A DNA stretch of 64,000 nucleotides from Tetraselmis striata (lineage: Eukaryota; Chlorophyta; Chlorodendrophyceae; Chlorodendrales; Chlorodendraceae): positions 44,638-108,637 of the forward strand of contig VCJN01001044.1 of the NCBI GenBank assembly GCA_006384855.1, read 5' to 3'. A program made the position numbers and the translations under genes. This document shows positions 8,779 to 22,387 of the stretch, in pieces; position 1 is the first letter of the stretch, and the number at the start of each line of letters is the position of its first letter. Under the pieces are notes generated by a model. That model had not been told where the DNA came from and ran no database searches. It worked only from the letters and a program-made list of their open reading frames with translations.

Positions 8779-9258
8779 TGTTGTTTCGATTGAGTCTGCT
8801 GAGTTGCGCAGATTCACACAGTGGAGACCACCAGGTTGGTGGGAAATTAAGGAACTTCTGGTATTACAATATTGGTACATTCGCCCATGATGTGTCCTGG
8901 CTCAGAGGTGCTCAGACATCTCTGAGACCTTCTGCACAAATGAGGTTCCTATTCCAGTACCTAAGGCATGTAGGTCGCGCCGCCACAGGCCTAATCAGGA
9001 TGCTGTTAGAGGCTGATTGGTGGAACCTCATTCATTGCCTATGGGCGAGTTATCCCTTGTGAGTGCGTGGCTGGTGGGCCGCTTCAGCCCCACCTGAGTT
9101 GGCAGCTCTGCTCCAGGAGCAGGATTCTGCTCCTGGGCTAGTACTTAATTAGTACTTCCTTACTACTTGGTAGTACCTAAGTCTCAGTAGGTGCTCAGTT
9201 CAGTTGGGGCCAAAACCTTCCCTAGGGTTTTAGCCCTACTTGCACTAGTGCTTCAACA
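8779..9258 (-). repeat. 3' LTR of the copia element
   Basis: 480 bp with inverted termini TGTTG/CAACA, homologous along its length to 15384-15872. It contains a perfect 9-bp-arm hairpin (CAGGAGCAG...CTGCTCCTG, 9113-9136) that is also kept in the other LTR. It differs from its partner by scattered substitutions and small indels, for example near 8823, 9030 and 9145. Confidence 0.93.
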
Positions 9259-9267
9259 CCCCTCCTC
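9259..9267 (-). other. Polypurine tract of the copia element
   Basis: On the coding strand the bases directly before the 3' LTR read GAGGAGGGG. This is the expected place and composition for the plus-strand primer of reverse transcription. Confidence 0.7.
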
Positions 9268-9299
9268 ACGGAGCGCTGGCACTCCGGTGCTTAACACGG

Positions 9300-9870
9300 C
9301 AGGCAAGTCGCTCAAACTGAGGGTTAGGGACAGGCTTGATGAATAAGATATCAGCGAGCATCTCACCGCTGGACACATAGTAGATTCCGACCACGTTGTC
9401 TCGGTGTGCATCCCTCACGAAGTGCAACCTGATGTCCAGATGCTTTGTCCTGCCGGACGCGCTGTCTGTGGACGCAATGGCAATGCACGCCTGGGTGTCC
9501 TCACCCAGCGGCGTGGGCTCCAGTTGGGGGTACCCAGCATTCAGTAAAGGAACTTGTCCTCCTGGACAGCCATGCTGAGTGCAAGTACTCAGCCTCGGCG
9601 GTTGTGGTGCGCGCGGTGTTGTGAACTTGTCCGTGGGGGCAAAGGTGGCAGCGTAATCGATGCCGTCGGTCTGAGAGTGTCCTTTGCAGCACATGCGCGC
9701 CTTGAATCGCGCGACGGGCGGTGCCGTCGGAGTGGTACCTCACCTTGATGATCCGCTTGCAGCGGATGGCCTTGCGTCCGGCAGGCGGCAAGGTGAGCTC
9801 CCAAGTATCACGGGCGATTAGGGCGACGTATTCTGCCTGGATTGCTGACAACCGCTCAGCGGCGTTGTCT
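9300..9870 (-). pseudogene. Remnant of copia reverse transcriptase and RNase H, internally deleted
   Basis: On the minus strand the RT N-terminus is readable from about 9870 (RDTWELTLPPAGRKAI, then KVRYHSDGTARR) to YAATFAPTDKFTT near 9630. The sequence then jumps directly to the RNase H region (TTAEAEYL), LGEDTQACIAIA and GRTKHLDIRLHFVRD, and ends near 9300 with SSGEMLADILF. The RT palm with the YVDD catalytic motif, the thumb and the first half of RNase H are absent. At least two frameshifts separate the readable pieces. This deletion alone makes the copy non-autonomous. Confidence 0.85.
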
Positions 9871-10499
9871 GACCCGATGGCCTCGTTGCAGGACTGGGGG
9901 TCGCCTGCTGTTTCTCCGGCCGACAGGGCTGCGGCTGAGAGCATGGCTCGATCAGGGGAGGTGAAGTTGCCGGACACGTGAGCGGAGCTGCGGTCTCGTC
10001 CGGGGAGAGCGGGAACATTGCACTCGCGGTAGCGCACGTTGTCTGTGCGCACGCGCCCGGAGGTGAGTTGTCCTGTACCGCGGGGCCGGGCTGCGCTGGT
10101 TGCCGGTCCGCTGGGACAGGCTGGTGGAGGCGTCGGGGTCGGGGCTGCTCCTGATGTCGTTGCTAGATGACTGAGACCGGGCTGGTGCTGTGGGGATTCG
10201 TGGCATCATCGGGGTGATGGGCTGCGGTGTGGGTCCGGGGGGTTCGTTCACGAGGCTCGGGGGGGCTTGGGGGCGGCGTCACGTGCGCCTGCTGGGTTGT
10301 CGTCTGGCGCGTCGCTGTCGCCCGATGCTGCAGAGTCACTATCAGCGTGTATGGGACCACCCGGGGGGTCAACCGTGGGTCAACCCCTCCTGAGCCGGGA
10401 CTGCCTGTCCCCTCCTGAGAGGCAGGTCCCTCCTCAGGCAGGGACGGGTCAAAGCGGCCCAGGCGATCTGTTTCGTCTGGCAACGGTGGTGCGGGTATC

Positions 10500-11340
10500 G
10501 GGGAGCCACAGCAGCCACGCCGGGGAGTCAGGCAACCCACAAAGATTCCCTCACGGGCTGCGACAGCATCCTTGGTGCGGGTGCCGCGCGGCGCGTGGAC
10601 GGACGCAGGGCAGCCAGCCACACGCAAGCAGTGAAGCAAAAAACGGTCTCTGCCCTGTCAGAAGTTGCAGCGGGACGGAGGGTGCGGTTGTGAAGGCGAG
10701 CCGCAACCGCCATGGCAAACTGCCAGAACTCGGGACCCGGGCCAGAGTAGTTCATCATGCATCAAGCCAACACGTAAAGGGTGTACGCCGTGCGCTCGAT
10801 CAGCCCATTCTGGAAGTGGTTGTAGGGGGCAGAGTACGTTCGTGCGATGTTGAGGTCGCCGGAGAGACGAATGAATTCCGTGTTGCGAAACGCAGAGTCA
10901 TGGTCGAGACGGACAGCTCGCATGGCGCACCCCAGACTGGCCGCCATGCTGTGAAGGGCGCGAAGGCGCGCTGGAGCTGCAGCTCGGGATCTGCAGAAGT
11001 AGACTGCAACCAGGGAAGTGGCGTAGTCGGTGGCTCCACGGACGCAGGTGCTGCCCTGCAGGGATTTCGTGGAATTCTGCCAGAGGCCCCGCGCGACAAG
11101 TGGGAAGGGCTCTGCGGGCTTGGGGTGGGTGCCTCGGGGACGGGGTGCCACGGTGGACTTGACGATAGCGCGCGCCCTGCAGAAAGGGAGCGAGCACTTG
11201 GCGGGAACAGCTCCAGTTCCAAGCGACCCGGCTCACACAATGGCGTCCATACTGCGCTCATTGAGGTGAGCTAAGCGCGCATGCCATAGCTGCTTGGCAA
11301 GGGGGGAGAGGGCGCAGATGTTTCTGCGAGCAGGAGTGTA
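10500..11340 (-). pseudogene. copia GAG-pre-integrase and integrase core, frameshifted
   Basis: LWHARLAHLNERSM at about 11310-11245 is the GAG-pre-integrase signature and is followed by an in-frame TGA. The integrase core is open from 11151 to 10762 and retains all three acidic residues: D in GATDYATSLVAV, D in RLDHDSAFRN, and E in HFQNGLIERT. The C-terminal part (PEFWQFAMAVAARLHNR) continues in another frame to about 10530. The family role is insertion of the cDNA into the host genome. The catalytic triad is intact in sequence, but the polyprotein is broken before and after it. Confidence 0.85.
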
Positions 11341-11639
11341 GGGGCGGCTGCATCAGCGGACGTGTGTGATGATCTGTGCCCGCAGGACGAGCAGCCTTTC
11401 GTTGGTGTGCAGCGGGATCATGGTTTGGTCCGGCAGTTCCATGCGTGGGTCGTCAGGCGTGCGGGCGATTCGGAGGCCAGCCCGGGAGTCCCTTGCCTGT
11501 CGACCGCTGAACAGGCGGAGGGACGTCCCCGTTCGTTTTGCGAGCGAGGTCAGGTACGTGCAGACAAGCATGGGCCGCCCCCCGGACGGGTTGGCCACTG
11601 CTGGCGCGCAGCAACTGGTGGATAGTGCCTGTGCCAACG

Positions 11640-11763
11640 GCGTAGGCGCCGAGTCCGTGAACCCGGCGCTGTGGAATGGTCTGGTAGTCGCTGAAGTCAG
11701 AGAGAACTGACGACATGTGGCCCGCTGCCCCTGTGTCAAACACCCACCAGCCCAGAAATGTGC
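11640..11763 (-). pseudogene. copia aspartic protease segment
   Basis: WWVFDTGAAGHMSSVL (catalytic Asp codon at 11735-11737) matches the Ty1/copia protease active site, normally W-x-D-S/T-G-A. The segment lies in the same open frame as the methyltransferase C-terminus upstream and ends in VHGLGAYAVGTG-like sequence. In these elements the protease cuts the Gag-Pol polyprotein. Confidence 0.85.
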
Positions 11764-11819
11764 GCAGGGCGAGATGGGCGCTGGTCGTGGCGGGGTGCAG
11801 ATGGGCAGTTCTCAGTGAG

Positions 11820-12905
11820 ATGGGCTGCTTGCTGATGGCTGATACCAGCCACGTGCAGATGTTGGCGTCCACCGCGGCTCCGAGGTATCGTCGGCGAGCG
11901 TCCTCGGAGATGCGCGGGGACTGGAGGGTGGTGATGGGGAACCCAATGGCCGCTGCCCGGATGTCTGCTCCATCCGCTGTCCGTCCCTCTGCAGCATGCC
12001 ACGTCCTGGCTCACTGTCGTGTATGCGGTACGCATGACTGCCCTTGCGCGACATAAACTGTGGGGAAGCGCTGTGGCGCAGCAGGGGCGCAGCCGACCAG
12101 ACAGGACTGAAGCCGTGTCGGTCCGGCAGGTCACCAACCGTGATCGGGCGGCGGACGGAGGCTGCGTAGTGGCTTTGGAGCGCCTGGAGGCTCCGGAAGT
12201 TCGTCCACAGCCACTACGCAGAGGTGTCGCGTCTGGTGGTGGAGCCGAGCTCGTGCGCACGCACGCACCATGATGGGGCTGCCCATGGCGTGACGCAGTT
12301 TGGGGAATCGCCTTGCGCCAGGTACGTTCTCCAGTACGTAGTTGACCGAGCCTTGCGTCTGGTGCAGCATCTGGAGGATGGTGCACGCTGCCTGCATGGG
12401 GGCAGCTGCCGGCTCCGATAGGCCTCTCTTGTTTCCCGCGTTGCAGAAGGGGGGGCATGGTGGCGTGCCCAGGAGCAAGCCAAATGCGCACCGATGGCTG
12501 TCAGATGGCCTGGCGTGATGGCGCGGATGTCCTGCGGGACGCACTCGTGGGCTGCTTTGATGGCAGACATCGGGAGAAGCCATGGGACGAGACTCAAAGA
12601 CTGCGTCCAGATGACTTCGAGAAGTGGCCGGGTCTACCCCTTCCAATGATTGAGGAAGAGGAGCGAGCAGAGCGTGCAGCAGCGGAGAAGAGGAGACTCG
12701 AGGCGGCAGAGCGTCGAGGGGATTATGTGATCGAAGATGATGATCGGTGGTCGTGGTGGACGGCAAACAGCTCTTGCTGCATGGCGTCTCCTGCGCAGGC
12801 GCCCGTGTCTGTCAAGGCGAGCCTTCCGATCTTGTGTCGAGCTGCTGCGAGGGCACAAACCAGGCCGGGTAGGGCGCCAGAGCACAGCTGGAGCACGTGA
12901 ATTGG
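11820..12905 (-). pseudogene. Cytosine-C5 DNA methyltransferase domain inside the copia polyprotein
   Basis: Reading the minus strand from 12905, the conserved C5-methyltransferase motifs occur in order: motif I-like HVLQLCSGALPGL (AdoMet site), DIRAITPGHL, motif IV GTPPCPPFCNAGNKRG with the catalytic Cys of the PC dipeptide (near 12450), motif VI YVLENVPG (near 12325), motif VIII-like TTRRD followed by LWTNFRSL, FMSRKGSHAYR, then motif X-like RRRYLGAAVDANICTWLVSA. The last segment runs without a stop into the protease active site at 11737, so the module is part of the retroelement polyprotein. Frameshifts near 12750, 12490, 12245 and 11965 split it, so this copy is a pseudogene. Such a domain could write 5-methylcytosine on DNA; here that activity is inferred from the family only. 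Confidence 0.85.
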
Positions 12906-14169
12906 CTTGCTCTTGTTGTGCAAGCAGTCTCCATCGGGGCCAGTGTGCTGGGTGCGCTGGAGCGGTGGAGGCTCCCTGGCTGCCTCTGTCACTTCAGCGG
13001 TGATGGCTGCGAATACATCGACGGCGTTGGTGTTGCCGATGCGTCACGCCTCGCAACGTGCCAGTTGCCTTGCTGCACGACGGCGGCGGCGTTTTGCGGC
13101 GTGCTGGCGGATGCGGTTGGGACGGAGTCCTGTGATGAAGTTGGCGTGGCCCTCAACACGCGAGCTGCAGGCGACATCTGAGCTGTCGCTGTTGGTGTTG
13201 CTGTCTGAGGAGTCAGCTGCCAAAGGTGGTATGTCATGGTTGCAGTCTGTGTGGTCCCCTCCTGTGGCCCGGTGCGGGCCAGCAAGGAGTCTGGCCAGAC
13301 TGGTGACATTGGCGCGACAGGTGCGGGGGTGGCAGCAGCGGCGGCGGCGGCGATCCTTGTCGTCGGCCTCATCAGTGAGCTGGAGGAGGCGGAAGCAAGA
13401 GCCAAGAGATGGGATTGGCCCAGGCGTAGGAGCGATGCAGATGGACTGCAGCGGCAGGAGTTCGACAGGCGGGGCGTCATGATGCGGGGGGGCGGCCACG
13501 TCGGAGCCGAGATGATCGGGGAGATGGCTGTTGGGGTTTGAGGTGCCGAACGGTGGCAGCTGGACAGAGGCGGAGACCCAGGCGTCCACCGAGCACTGGT
13601 AGTCATGCAGGCCAGCGCGGCGTCCTCGCCGGCTTCCATGACTGCGACCTCGGCGACGGCGATGGCGGCGTCAGCGCGCTCGCGCGACGAGTTGGAGGGA
13701 GCGCGCTGGCGCTCACGACAAACAATGCGCAAAGCGGTGGTGGCTGCAACAAGGGCTACTTGGGGCCCGTGGGCACTTTCGCCTTTGAGTTCCATGGCCC
13801 ATTCCGCCATGGCTGGGGCAACGGCATGAGGCTGGACAGCGTCACAGATGCCATGAGTCGAGCAGACAGTGCCGGAGCCGGCGCACTGGAGATGGCCGGA
13901 GACAGCGGCGGCATAGAGGTGGTCCTCCAGGGAGCGAACTCAGGGCTGGCGACTCCACAGCGGTAGCGCCGAATGCGTCGAAGAAGCCATCGGTGGCGGG
14001 ATCGCTGGCGGGTTGAGCAACATCGCCCGCGGTGTAGGCCACCATGGCCATCCATGGAGGAGACCCGCCGAATGCAAGGCGAGCGGAAGGGCTGCGCCCA
14101 CCGTCACCCCCACCATTGCCACCACGGTCACCGTTGCAGTTGGCGTCGCGACGGCGGGGGCTCCCTCCT

Positions 14170-14944
14170 CGGGGGCGCACTGTGCCGTTCCGCGTGTCGG
14201 CGGCCAACTTACGGCACTCCCGTTTTGACGTGACCCTGCTCCCCGCAGTACCGCAGTACCCTGGGTTGTAGGCTGGGCGTCCTTCGTCCCGGTGAGCGCT
14301 TCCTGTCAACCCTCCAGGTGCAGCGGCGTTGAAGGCAGCAAGCTGGGCCTCCAGATATGCCACGCGAGATATCAGCGCAGCGTGCTTGGCGTCTGCGTCA
14401 GATCACGCCTGACAGAATGTGCATGCCTTGATGGGCGAACTCTGGCCGTCTGCCGATGCCTTGTGCGAAGGCCGCGACCGTGGCAGCGGCGCTCGCCGGG
14501 GTGCCGAGCTCCTCCAGCTCCACACGGATCAGCGTCAGCCGGCTCATGTAGTCAAGGAGGTCTCCACTACGCAGCGTGCGCTTGTGCAGGAAACGTGGAA
14601 GAGTGGAGATACGCTTATCCTCGCCGTGAGGGAGGAAGGTAGCTCGCAGCGCCTCAAACGCCTTGCGTCCGCGATGATCGTCTGTAGAGGTGAGCCACGC
14701 AACTAGGACGCCAGACGCGCGGCGGCTGCTGACCAGTTGCTGTAGCACAGATAGCAACGCCACATGGTGCTGGGCCGAGCAGGTGGTGAAGCTTGTCTGC
14801 ATTGAGGATAGTGGTGAAGCCTGCCTTGCTGGTGACAGCGCTCTGAAATTGTACAGGCCAAATTAGAAACTGATTGACGTTCATGTCGTCGAGGGGGAGG
14901 TGCTTGACGTCCTTGGCTCGTAGCAGCTCCGAGGCAAGTTCCAA
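14170..14944 (-). pseudogene. copia gag with CCHC zinc knuckle, frameshifted
   Basis: The frame starting near 14944 (MELASELLRAKDVKHLPLDD) and its continuation in a second frame (GRKAFEALRATF, ISTLPRFLHKR, DLLDYMSRLTLIRVELEELG) has the helical layout of copia Gag (UBN2-type). At 14210-14260 a zinc knuckle C-x2-C-x4-H-x4-C can be read across one-base shifts (CGEQGHV, then REC). Gag forms the virus-like particle and binds RNA. A Gly/Asp/Arg-rich linker follows and leads to about 1.2 kb of Ala/Ser/Thr/Pro-rich low-complexity coding sequence (14.1-12.95 kb) before the methyltransferase. Confidence 0.8.
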
Positions 14945-15371
14945 GGGGGGGCATGACGCTTGCTGATGAAGGGTTCAATCGAAAATCGGGCGAAGGTGAG
15001 GACAGCCAGAGTGTGGCAGAGGTGGCCCAAGTGGGCTAGGACAGCCACAAGGGGCAGCACACACAACAGCTGGGGAGCTCGTGCTGGGGAGCAGCACAAG
15101 GCGCAGGTCGTGACAGCGCGAGGCTTGAGGGGTATATGCGCAACGCAGGGGTCCCACCAGCCAGCGCGTATTTGCTCGCTGTGTAGGCGGTCATGTTGTA
15201 CAGCGGCATCACCCCGCCAGCTTGACTTGCATCGAAGAGGTTGACAGCCGCAGGGGGCCCAGTGGCGAGGGCAAGCACCACAAACTTCCGGAAAGGGGGG
15301 CAGGAAAACGCTGTAAGCCCATCCTATTCTCCAGCCAATCAGCAGTGTAGCAGAGAAGCTAGCTGTGGAGA

Positions 15372-15383
15372 GGGCTCATAACC
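15372..15383 (-). other. Primer-binding site complementary to the initiator tRNA-Met anticodon arm
   Basis: Directly inside the 5' LTR the plus strand reads GGGCTCATAACC. This is the anticodon-stem-loop sequence of eukaryotic initiator tRNA-Met (CAT anticodon), so the element RNA is complementary to an internal part of the tRNA and not to its 3' end. Such half-tRNA priming is known for Drosophila copia and relatives. Confidence 0.8.
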
Positions 15384-15872
15384 TGTTGTTTCGAGAGAGT
15401 CTGTTGAGTTGCGCAGATGCACAGTGCAGCCACAGTGGAGACCACCAGGTTGGTGGGAAAGGAACTTCTGTTTACAATATTAGTACATTAGCCAGTGATG
15501 TGTCCTGGCTCAAAGATGCTCGGACACCTCTGATGCCTTTTGCACAAATGAGATTCCTATTCTAGTACCTAAGGCCTGTAGGTTGCGCCGCTACAGGCCT
15601 AATCAGGATGCTGTTAGAGGCTGATTGGTGGAACCTCATTGCCGATGGGCGAGTTATCCCTTGTGAGTGCGTGGCTGGTGGGCTGCTTCAGCCCCACCTG
15701 AGTTGGCAGCTCTGCTCCAGGAGCAGGATTCTGCTCCTGGGCTGTTAGAACTTAATTACTACATATATCCGTATAGTACTTAGTAGTACCTGTGTCTCAT
15801 TGGGTGCTCAGTTCAGTTAGGGCCAAAACCTTCCCTAGGGTTTTAGTCCCTACTTGCACTAGTGCTTCAACA
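15384..15872 (-). repeat. 5' LTR of the copia element
   Basis: 489 bp, TGTTG...CAACA, colinear with the 3' LTR and carrying the same hairpin (about 15716-15739). In the coding orientation it would hold the promoter and RNA start. No TATA box could be assigned with confidence. Confidence 0.93.
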
Positions 15873-21428: not shown

Positions 21429-22211
21429 TCAGACAAGCAACATGTGCCATATAATCCCCTTCCCATATGCCAAGAGGCGACGATGTGCGGAGAATACTGA
21501 GCGTGTTGAAACTAGAGCTTGAGCAAGGCTACATATACCGTTCCGGTCACTCCTTTGCTCTCGCCCTTGCCCCTTTTGATGCGAGTGCTTCCCACCGTTA
21601 TGAACAAGGGCATTATGCCATATTTGCTCACACCGCCATAGACATGCACCTTGAAGCAGTTCTTCTCGGAGGGCTTGCTTGGTGGGTGGCTCATCCTCAA
21701 ACAAAACCCAATCCTGGAAGCCGGCCCCCTTGGTGCAAAGCCAAAAGTACTTGCTATCGGTCACAACCACGTTGTCCCATGACTTGCTTACCCACTCACG
21801 AGCGAACGCCAGTCGATCTTGCATGTGACGAGGAGTCAGATACACGCGCTTTTTGGGTCGAAGCTAACGTGCCAAGTACGCAGCGACTACGTGGCGTCTC
21901 ACTGTCTCCGCAGTCACACACAGCCCATCCACCTCGTCCTTGAGGGTTTGTGCCAGTTGGGGGCACTTGAACCTCGCCCGTATGCCCCCTCGTAGCTTCT
22001 CCTCAACTTCACACGTCCCGAGCGGTGCGCGCGGGCGCCCCGACCTCGGCAGGTCATCCACGCATCCGGTATCCTTGGCACGCTTCACCCACTTGATAAT
22101 CGTCCTCACGTCTGCCCCGAGCGCCTTTACAGCCGCTCGGCAGCTCCCGAGTCGCTCGGCCTCGAGAACGAGCCGCCACCGCCGCGCAATGGTAGCTGCA
22201 CTAGCATGCAT
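21429..22211 (-). pseudogene. Tc1/mariner-like (IS630 superfamily) transposase, decayed
   Basis: The N-terminal part (22211-21864, 115 codons from ATG) is a helix-turn-helix DNA-binding domain with the typical inter-domain motif DLPRSGRPR. An in-frame TAG at 21864 is followed in the same frame by LRPKKRVYLTPRHMQDRLAF and DNVVVTDSKYFWL, which hold the first Asp of the DDE catalytic domain. After PPTKQALREELLQG the reading shifts frame (VYGGVSKYGIMPLFI) and then shifts again. The second Asp block (DNA-x-H type) and the final acidic residue were not found. The gene is therefore dead: one stop, at least two frameshifts and a missing C-terminal half. No terminal inverted repeats were identified. 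Confidence 0.75.
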
Positions 22212-22387
22212 AGTGCGCCGACGCTGTGGTTGAAGGGGGTGTGGGGTCGGCTTTTGTGCGGTAGCCGTGGTCGACGCGTGTGAGTAGATAGATCGGCTAG
22301 GAAGTTATTGAGTTTGATGACGCTCCGGGAGTGGCGGCGACCAGAAATACGGTTACGGCGGTAAACGAGCCGCCCAAACATGTCGAA

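Follow-up and report, generated by a model that had tools for sequence, protein, structure and literature searches.

What does a retrotransposon gain from an enzyme of the type by which hosts silence it? The question is raised by a 64,000-nucleotide stretch of Tetraselmis striata DNA (contig VCJN01001044.1; the window in what follows), in which a decayed Ty1/copia element of 7.1 kb occupies positions 8779-15872 on the minus strand and a C5-cytosine methyltransferase (DNMT) sits between its gag and protease parts. In the reading that we think probable, this is a dead copy of an old DNMT-bearing Ty1/copia lineage, and the domain would be an active DNA methyltransferase working on the element's own complementary DNA (cDNA) or on its integrated copies. 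Comparison with relatives establishes, at the level of sequence, several features of the lineage: (i) its anatomy, (ii) many open copies, (iii) recent insertions, (iv) a conserved catalytic core, (v) purifying selection, and (vi) joint inheritance of the DNMT with the protease-integrase part.

A sequence-only reading of this DNA had reported the DNMT motifs in order on the copia strand, upstream of the protease. All of them were found on the minus strand: LCSGALPG in 12744-12917, GTPPCPPF and YVLENVPG in the frame 12131-12811, TTRRD in the frame 12214-12633, and LWTNF in the frame 11812-12213. The last motif had been placed in one frame with the protease, and YLGAAVDANICTWLV and DTGAAGHM indeed share a single open frame, 11453-12010. 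The pieces extend from 12917 to about 11850 and are spread over several frames, so the domain is broken in this copy. They are listed here with their matches to families A and D, two copia families of the same genome.

12744-12917, minus strand: DNMT motif I piece (LQLCSGALPG); tblastn with family D residues 711-770; profile E 5.6e-8 in the frame 12726-13043
12260-12585, minus strand: DNMT middle part in two frames, with LLPMSAIK, motif IV (PPC) and motif VI (ENV); profile E 1.6e-24 in the frame 12134-12811
11968-12261, minus strand: DNMT motif VIII (TTRRD..LWTNF) and target-recognition part (FMSRKGSHAYR); tblastn with family A residues 976-1070, 55%
11522-11965, minus strand: DNMT motif X (LGAAVDANICTWLV) and protease (DTGAAGHM) in one frame; tblastn with family A residues 1074-1211; profile E 7.9e-14

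The profile was built from DNMT domains of other loci and run on 1660 six-frame fragments. It matched five window frames (E 1.6e-24, 6.1e-23, 7.9e-14, 5.6e-8 and 6.4e-6; 83.1 to 21.9 bits), the second being the motif VIII and target-recognition frame 11815-12213, and 20 shuffles of the element scored 3.8 bits at most. The Pfam DNA_methylase match is weak in the window (E 0.0059, below the cut-off, in one of the four DNMT frames scanned separately).

The assembly searched for further copies of the module comprises 224 Mb in 2903 contigs. The sequence-only reading had proposed a genome-wide search for relatives, and other copies exist: at least 161 loci on 152 contigs, merged from 200 match rows. 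This count by match, which joins the searches with the DNMT domains of family A and of family C, a family of long interspersed nuclear elements (LINEs), is a lower bound since part of the candidates was scored; it includes four LINE C loci and omits the Pfam rows. Separately, the family A domain gave at least 123 matches (120 of 508 candidates scored), the LINE C domain at least 144 (114 of 543), and Pfam DNA_methylase 123 scored matches among 337 candidates, many in frames of 1000-2300 residues. At least 81 of the loci lie in frames of 1000 residues or more and at least 48 in frames of 1500 or more, and 44 of these 48 have no stop inside the match.

In family A (2299 residues), the polyprotein runs from zinc knuckle through DNMT, Pol_BBD protease, pre-integrase, integrase and SH3 to RVT_2. 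The same order is found in family B (2162 residues; zinc knuckle and protease identified by motif, not Pfam) and family D (2147 residues; DNMT and zinc knuckle below Pfam cut-offs). Thus, the DNMT is in frame with gag and pol in the three families read through; families F and G were read up to the integrase region. Integrase precedes a copia-type reverse transcriptase (RT; RVT_2) in families A, B, D and E and in P0005 and P0094. Four of six protein matches to the family A DNMT region are Tetstr1 gene models, 94-99% identical, and protein searches also found related DNMT-bearing polyproteins from other sources. The claim that the DNMT belongs to the copia polyprotein, between gag and protease, is borne out by these polyproteins and by the open copies.

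The expectation that intact copia relatives carry the module holds for families A, B and D and fails for family E (1561 residues), an intact copia family of the same genome in which the DNMT profile, run with filters off, found no match. Family E is clustered on contigs C1776, C440, C805, C1435 and C1303, in places roughly every 6.1 kb (C1776: 30126, 36234, 42343), and these clusters may be tandem arrays or centromeres. The existence of a family lacking the module would fit a host methyltransferase gene that, at the window locus, neighbours an ordinary copia element or entered it by a single insertion. The number of module loci, the frame shared with gag and pol in three families, and the agreeing trees described next leave that explanation with practically no probability, and a single host-gene insertion was rejected on the multicopy open frames.

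Trees of the DNMT and of the protease-integrase part were compared for eight copia families (A, B, D, F, G, P0005, P0094 and P0096). The same groups appear in both: A+G+D+P0096, B+F, and P0005+P0094. This agreement speaks for a capture of the DNMT by copia elements long ago, followed by inheritance together with the protease-integrase part. In the tree comparison that the sequence-only reading had suggested, the DNMT clusters with DNMTs of other retrotransposons, and its tree matches the protease-integrase tree of the elements that carry it, which does not fit a host gene inserted once. In the pol tree, which has no outgroup root, family E is placed weakly inside the DNMT-bearing families (63/61); a grouping of A, D, G, P0005, P0094 and P0096 against E, B and F was not rejected (p-AU 0.31).

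Recent movement is seen in the long terminal repeats (LTRs), pairs of which were found in families A, B, D, E, F and G. Three family A copies have LTR pairs that agree at 99.8% (464 bp), 100% (470 bp) and 100% (469 bp), and two copies show apparent 5-bp target duplications, ATAGA and TGGAC, with LTR ends that are not strictly TG..CA. The pairs agree at 99.2% over 492 bp in family B, 99.8% over 512 bp in family G and 98.5% over 324 bp in family F; in family D, agreement is 100% over two overlapping parts. Of six family A copies, five have mutual identities of 98.8-99.7%, and the sixth, L020, is 95.6-96.0% identical to those.

The ratio of nonsynonymous to synonymous substitution rates (dN/dS) was calculated for copy pairs. 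For L011 and L020 of family A, it is 0.174 in the DNMT (23.5 nonsynonymous and 41.5 synonymous changes), 0.153 in gag, 0.227 in the protease-integrase part and 0.623 in the gag-DNMT linker; for L013 and L020, the respective values are 0.201, 0.221, 0.283 and 0.782. For L014 and L016 of family B, the DNMT has 0.073, gag 0.399 and the linker 0.69, and the protease-integrase part has 0, with eight changes, all synonymous. The contrast between DNMT and linker is significant in Fisher tests (p = 8e-4 in family A, 0.02 in family B). RT-part values were set aside: 0.77 and 0.26 in family A cover only 138 and 24 codons, L020 ending early, and 0.85 in family B involves L016, which is frameshifted there. 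As far as substitutions in these copies can tell, the DNMT part has been kept under purifying selection.

What kind of enzyme is this? The catalytic Cys of motif IV, the ENV of motif VI and the Arg of motif VIII are invariant in 11 of 11 compared domains, the most distant of which has 27% identity to family A. The S-adenosylmethionine-binding motif I is present; it departs, as does motif X, from the usual consensus. PF00145 scores above its cut-off in families A, B and F, LINE C, P0005 and P0096, not in D, and P0094 has no listing. Among solved structures, the domain profile finds DNMT3A first (E 1.1e-12) and DNMT2-type tRNA methyltransferases second (E 5.2e-10). The predicted structure, in which an eleven-sequence version replaced a four-sequence one (pLDDT 62), has the full catalytic-domain fold and is closer to DNMT3A than to DNMT2. 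By sequence and predicted fold, DNMT3 is the nearest relative of the retrotransposon DNMT. The deviating motifs I and X would suit a domain that has lost catalysis and serves only as a structural part on the gag side; the invariant catalytic residues, at such distances, and the complete predicted fold make this very unlikely.

In two DNMT trees with long branches and a single DNMT3 reference, the copia, LINE and gypsy domains cluster with human DNMT3A and are separated from presumed bacterial DNMTs (100/99 and 100/100). DNMT1, DNMT5, DRM and ChloroDNMT were left out, as were P0001-P0004, P0007, P0012-P0017 and L007 of this genome; the presumed bacterial sequences (seven and five in the two trees) were taken from 76 weaker matches, P0018-P0093. 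LINE-type DNMTs form one clade (99/98 and 100/99); P0009-P0011 were assigned to LINE solely because they resemble P0006. Copia DNMTs form one clade in 46% of bootstraps in one tree, and two changes would be needed in the other. Viral contigs scanned with one window piece gave no relative; the DNMT alignment matched 39 viral loci, all partial (query residues 31-233, best E 8e-8).

DNMTs of this type are carried in this alga by LINE and gypsy elements as well as by copia, and related elements from other sources have them too. LINE family C has a 3065-residue frame at four loci, with endonuclease, RT, PCIF1-type domain, DNMT and RNase H; at L018:1-9195 (C2687:14000-23999), the PCIF1-type domain (PF12237, E 1e-14) and the DNMT lie between RT and RNase H. 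P0006, a relative of LINE C from another source, has both domains too. In the Ty3/gypsy element H1 (L085:14-6956, C1687), the DNMT lies ahead of RT and extends across two overlapping frames, which the profile matches at E 9.5e-8 and 8.6e-30; the Pfam DNA_methylase score falls just short of the cut-off. One copy was read, and its frame length of 1771 residues recurs among the gypsy matches listed. H1 also has a PHD finger, and its C-terminal stretch DPWAGHGSTAEAL resembles by eye a second methyltransferase; a Pfam scan found no methyltransferase there, and an LTR of H1 was looked for and not found. In P0097, a further gypsy element, the DNMT lies between RNase H and integrase. The chromodomain-bearing gypsy element H2 (L086:702-5303, C464) has a weak match to Dam, an N6-adenine methyltransferase, ahead of its protease (E 1.6e-4, below the cut-off).

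PCIF1 is an RNA cap enzyme. Its presence in the LINE relatives, the second rank of the DNMT2-type enzymes among solved structures and the lack of a CpG footprint in coding sequence could all indicate an active C5-methyltransferase that, like DNMT2, acts on RNA, either that of the element or its tRNA primer. By profile and by fold, DNMT3A is the closer relative, and in the tree, on long branches, it groups with these domains apart from DNMT2; together with the CpG-poor LTRs of one branch, this makes an RNA target unlikely.

These LTRs have CpG observed/expected ratios of 0.28-0.31 in family A, 0.36 in D, 0.13 in G and 0.29 in the window (loci L011, L012, L020, L033, L082 and the window). The ratio is 0.85 in B, 0.83 in F, 1.20 in E, which has no DNMT, and 1.0 in gypsy H2, where no such DNMT was found. 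Among overlapping background tiles of 480 bp, none reaches 0.36 or less, neither in the rest of the window (0 of 467) nor in the flanks of 15 other loci (0 of 266). The CpG-poor LTRs align mutually over 17-23 bp only, so their CpG poverty is not one shared sequence stretch; it belongs to an active lineage, because new copies already have it. It could come either from mutation of methylated source copies or from selection for unmethylatable promoters, and would link one copia branch (A, D, G and the window) to CpG methylation without tracking the DNMT as such. A general CpG depletion of DNMT-bearing elements was looked for and not found: coding parts and singleton changes are without CpG effect.

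The low ratios, unmatched by the background, and the lack of a shared stretch might also point to an outward aim, the enzyme silencing rival elements or host defence genes while the A/D/G/window branch is spared by its CpG-poor LTRs. We consider this improbable: B and F bear the DNMT with LTRs that are not depleted, and the depletion may equally reflect methylated source-copy LTRs that decayed. A bolder version, which we regard as rather doubtful, is that one DNMT clade has circulated among superfamilies and, combined in one copia branch with CpG-poor promoters, makes an epigenetic weapon with built-in immunity, directed against host or rival DNA; an element so equipped could methylate the surrounding DNA of host and rivals without silencing itself.

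The reading that we favour, methylation of the element's own cDNA or copies, would work as follows. A DNMT3-like C5-cytosine methyltransferase, placed after the zinc knuckle of gag and before the protease in a single gag-pol polyprotein, would be made with every polyprotein and would enter the particle on the gag side or be cut free by the neighbouring protease. It would methylate cytosines, most likely in CpG, of new cDNA or integrated copies. The likeliest benefit would be that new copies arrive premarked like resident DNA, and so are shielded before integration or cheaper to the host. Several points weigh against this reading: (i) the LTRs of the DNMT-bearing families B and F are not CpG-poor; (ii) coding CpG observed/expected ratios are similar with the DNMT (0.82-0.92) and without it (0.81 in family E); (iii) C-to-T changes among singletons show no excess at CpG (10 of 36 in family A and 8 of 41 in family B, versus 25-26% of C and G sites); (iv) family E lives without a DNMT; (v) the evidence for selection comes from few copy pairs, not a genome-wide sample; and (vi) LINE- and gypsy-borne DNMTs were inactive in a yeast assay that its authors deemed inconclusive (PMC5890265, available part).

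The rest of the window element is as follows.

15384-15872, minus strand: 5' LTR, 489 bp, pairing with 8779-9258; TG start, CA end
15372-15383, minus strand: putative primer binding site GGTTATGAGCCC, adjoining the 5' LTR
14398-14862, minus strand: gag remnant, open frame, by BLASTP against family D and family A gag
12574-12744, strand not assigned: 171-bp dispersed repeat inside the DNMT, between motifs I and IV
10675-11556, minus strand: protease end, pre-integrase and integrase, broken; tblastn with family A residues 1199-1495, 44%
9611-9917, minus strand: RT start, core missing; tblastn with family A residues 1767-1867
9293-9547, minus strand: C-terminal part of RNase H; tblastn with family A residues 2201-2285, 53%
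8779-9258, minus strand: 3' LTR, 480 bp, with the purine tract GAGGAGGGG ahead of it on this strand

The LTR lengths agree with the 480-490 bp given by the sequence-only reading. Between the two LTRs, 38 of 474 paired columns are mismatched and 29 further columns are gaps, so the insertion is old; no clean target-site duplication was seen at the element borders (CACCC versus CCGCC). The putative primer site reads GGTTATGAGCCC in the window, GGTTATGGGCC in family D and GGTTATGGC in family A; the window site seems to resemble the complement of the initiator tRNA-Met anticodon arm, and half of this tRNA is the typical primer of Ty1/copia elements. The gag remnant matches family D gag at 31% over 125 columns (E 6e-11) and family A gag at E 2e-7. 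Pol_BBD in the protease piece (E 5.1e-5) and rve in the integrase region (E 2.2e-4) are below their Pfam cut-offs. By tblastn, the remnants are collinear with the family A polyprotein, and about 330 residues of the RT core are missing. The frame breaks, the 171-bp insert and the missing RT core mean that this copy is dead. The 171-bp repeat occurs elsewhere in the genome at 90-96% identity (35 of 47 among the matches listed) and is lacking at the corresponding point in the related C2228 and C2821 copies. Two of its genomic matches share flanks with each other, so it may derive from a longer repeat.

Elsewhere in the window, at 21429-22304 on the minus strand, two adjacent frames resemble a broken Tc1/mariner-type transposase (HTH_32, HTH_29, HTH_Tnp_Tc3_2). 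Six further loci, L001-L006 (C1993, C776, C1647, C2337, C355 and C1455), have a similar 325-residue frame for a C5-methyltransferase of the ordinary kind, which differs from the DNMTs of the retrotransposons.

As far as our searches show, copia joins the retrotransposon superfamilies for which carriers of a DNA cytosine methyltransferase have been described, and a core chlorophyte joins their hosts. The capture in copia looks old and stable, which makes the standing question posed at the outset testable: many intact copies and, as a natural control, the DNMT-free copia family E are present in the same genome. Searches of the literature by title and abstract, with subscription journals and preprints outside their scope, gave no DNMT in a copia or Tetraselmis retrotransposon, and protein searches brought up no sequence labelled KnitGypsy, SymbioDIRS or SymbioLINE. 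In the available parts of the papers cited here, DNMT5a and DNMT6 are reported from Tetraselmis (PMC9998398) and a DNA transposon with a methyltransferase gene from Ectocarpus (PMC12477816).

Published retrotransposon carriers of DNMTs are LINE and DIRS elements in dinoflagellates and a gypsy element in a charophyte (PMC5890265, available part). Thus, of the earlier carriers named by the sequence-only reading, LTR retrotransposons of charophytes and dinoflagellates, the charophyte gypsy stands, whereas the dinoflagellate ones are LINE and DIRS; the Symbiodinium copia elements are described there as lacking DNMTs. One sentence of PMC12344493 names DNMT3 "in LTR Copia and DIRS" elements; it cites PMC5890265, which reports gypsy, and the available part of PMC12344493 describes no copia element. 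Ty3/gypsy and DIRS elements with Dam or Dcm domains in their polyproteins, green algae included, are similar in design (PMC6338049), but the word "copia" is absent from that paper's text. SymbioLINE-Dnmt of Symbiodinium is comparable to LINE family C in being a LINE with a DNMT; its DNMT is in a separate upstream frame (PMC5890265), whereas that of LINE C follows RT in one 3065-residue frame with a PCIF1-type domain. SymbioDIRS-Dnmt3 of Symbiodinium likewise has a DNMT3-type domain in a retrotransposon polyprotein, although it is a tyrosine-recombinase DIRS element of another host group; DIRS-borne DNMTs, its own included, methylate CpG in the yeast assay (PMC5890265). KnitGypsy-Dnmt3 of Klebsormidium nitens, compared by description, differs in being gypsy, not copia, with repeats arranged as in DIRS; it shares with the Tetraselmis lineage an LTR-type polyprotein, a DNMT3-related domain, a green-lineage host and purifying selection on the DNMT, its Ka/Ks being below 0.2 (PMC5890265).
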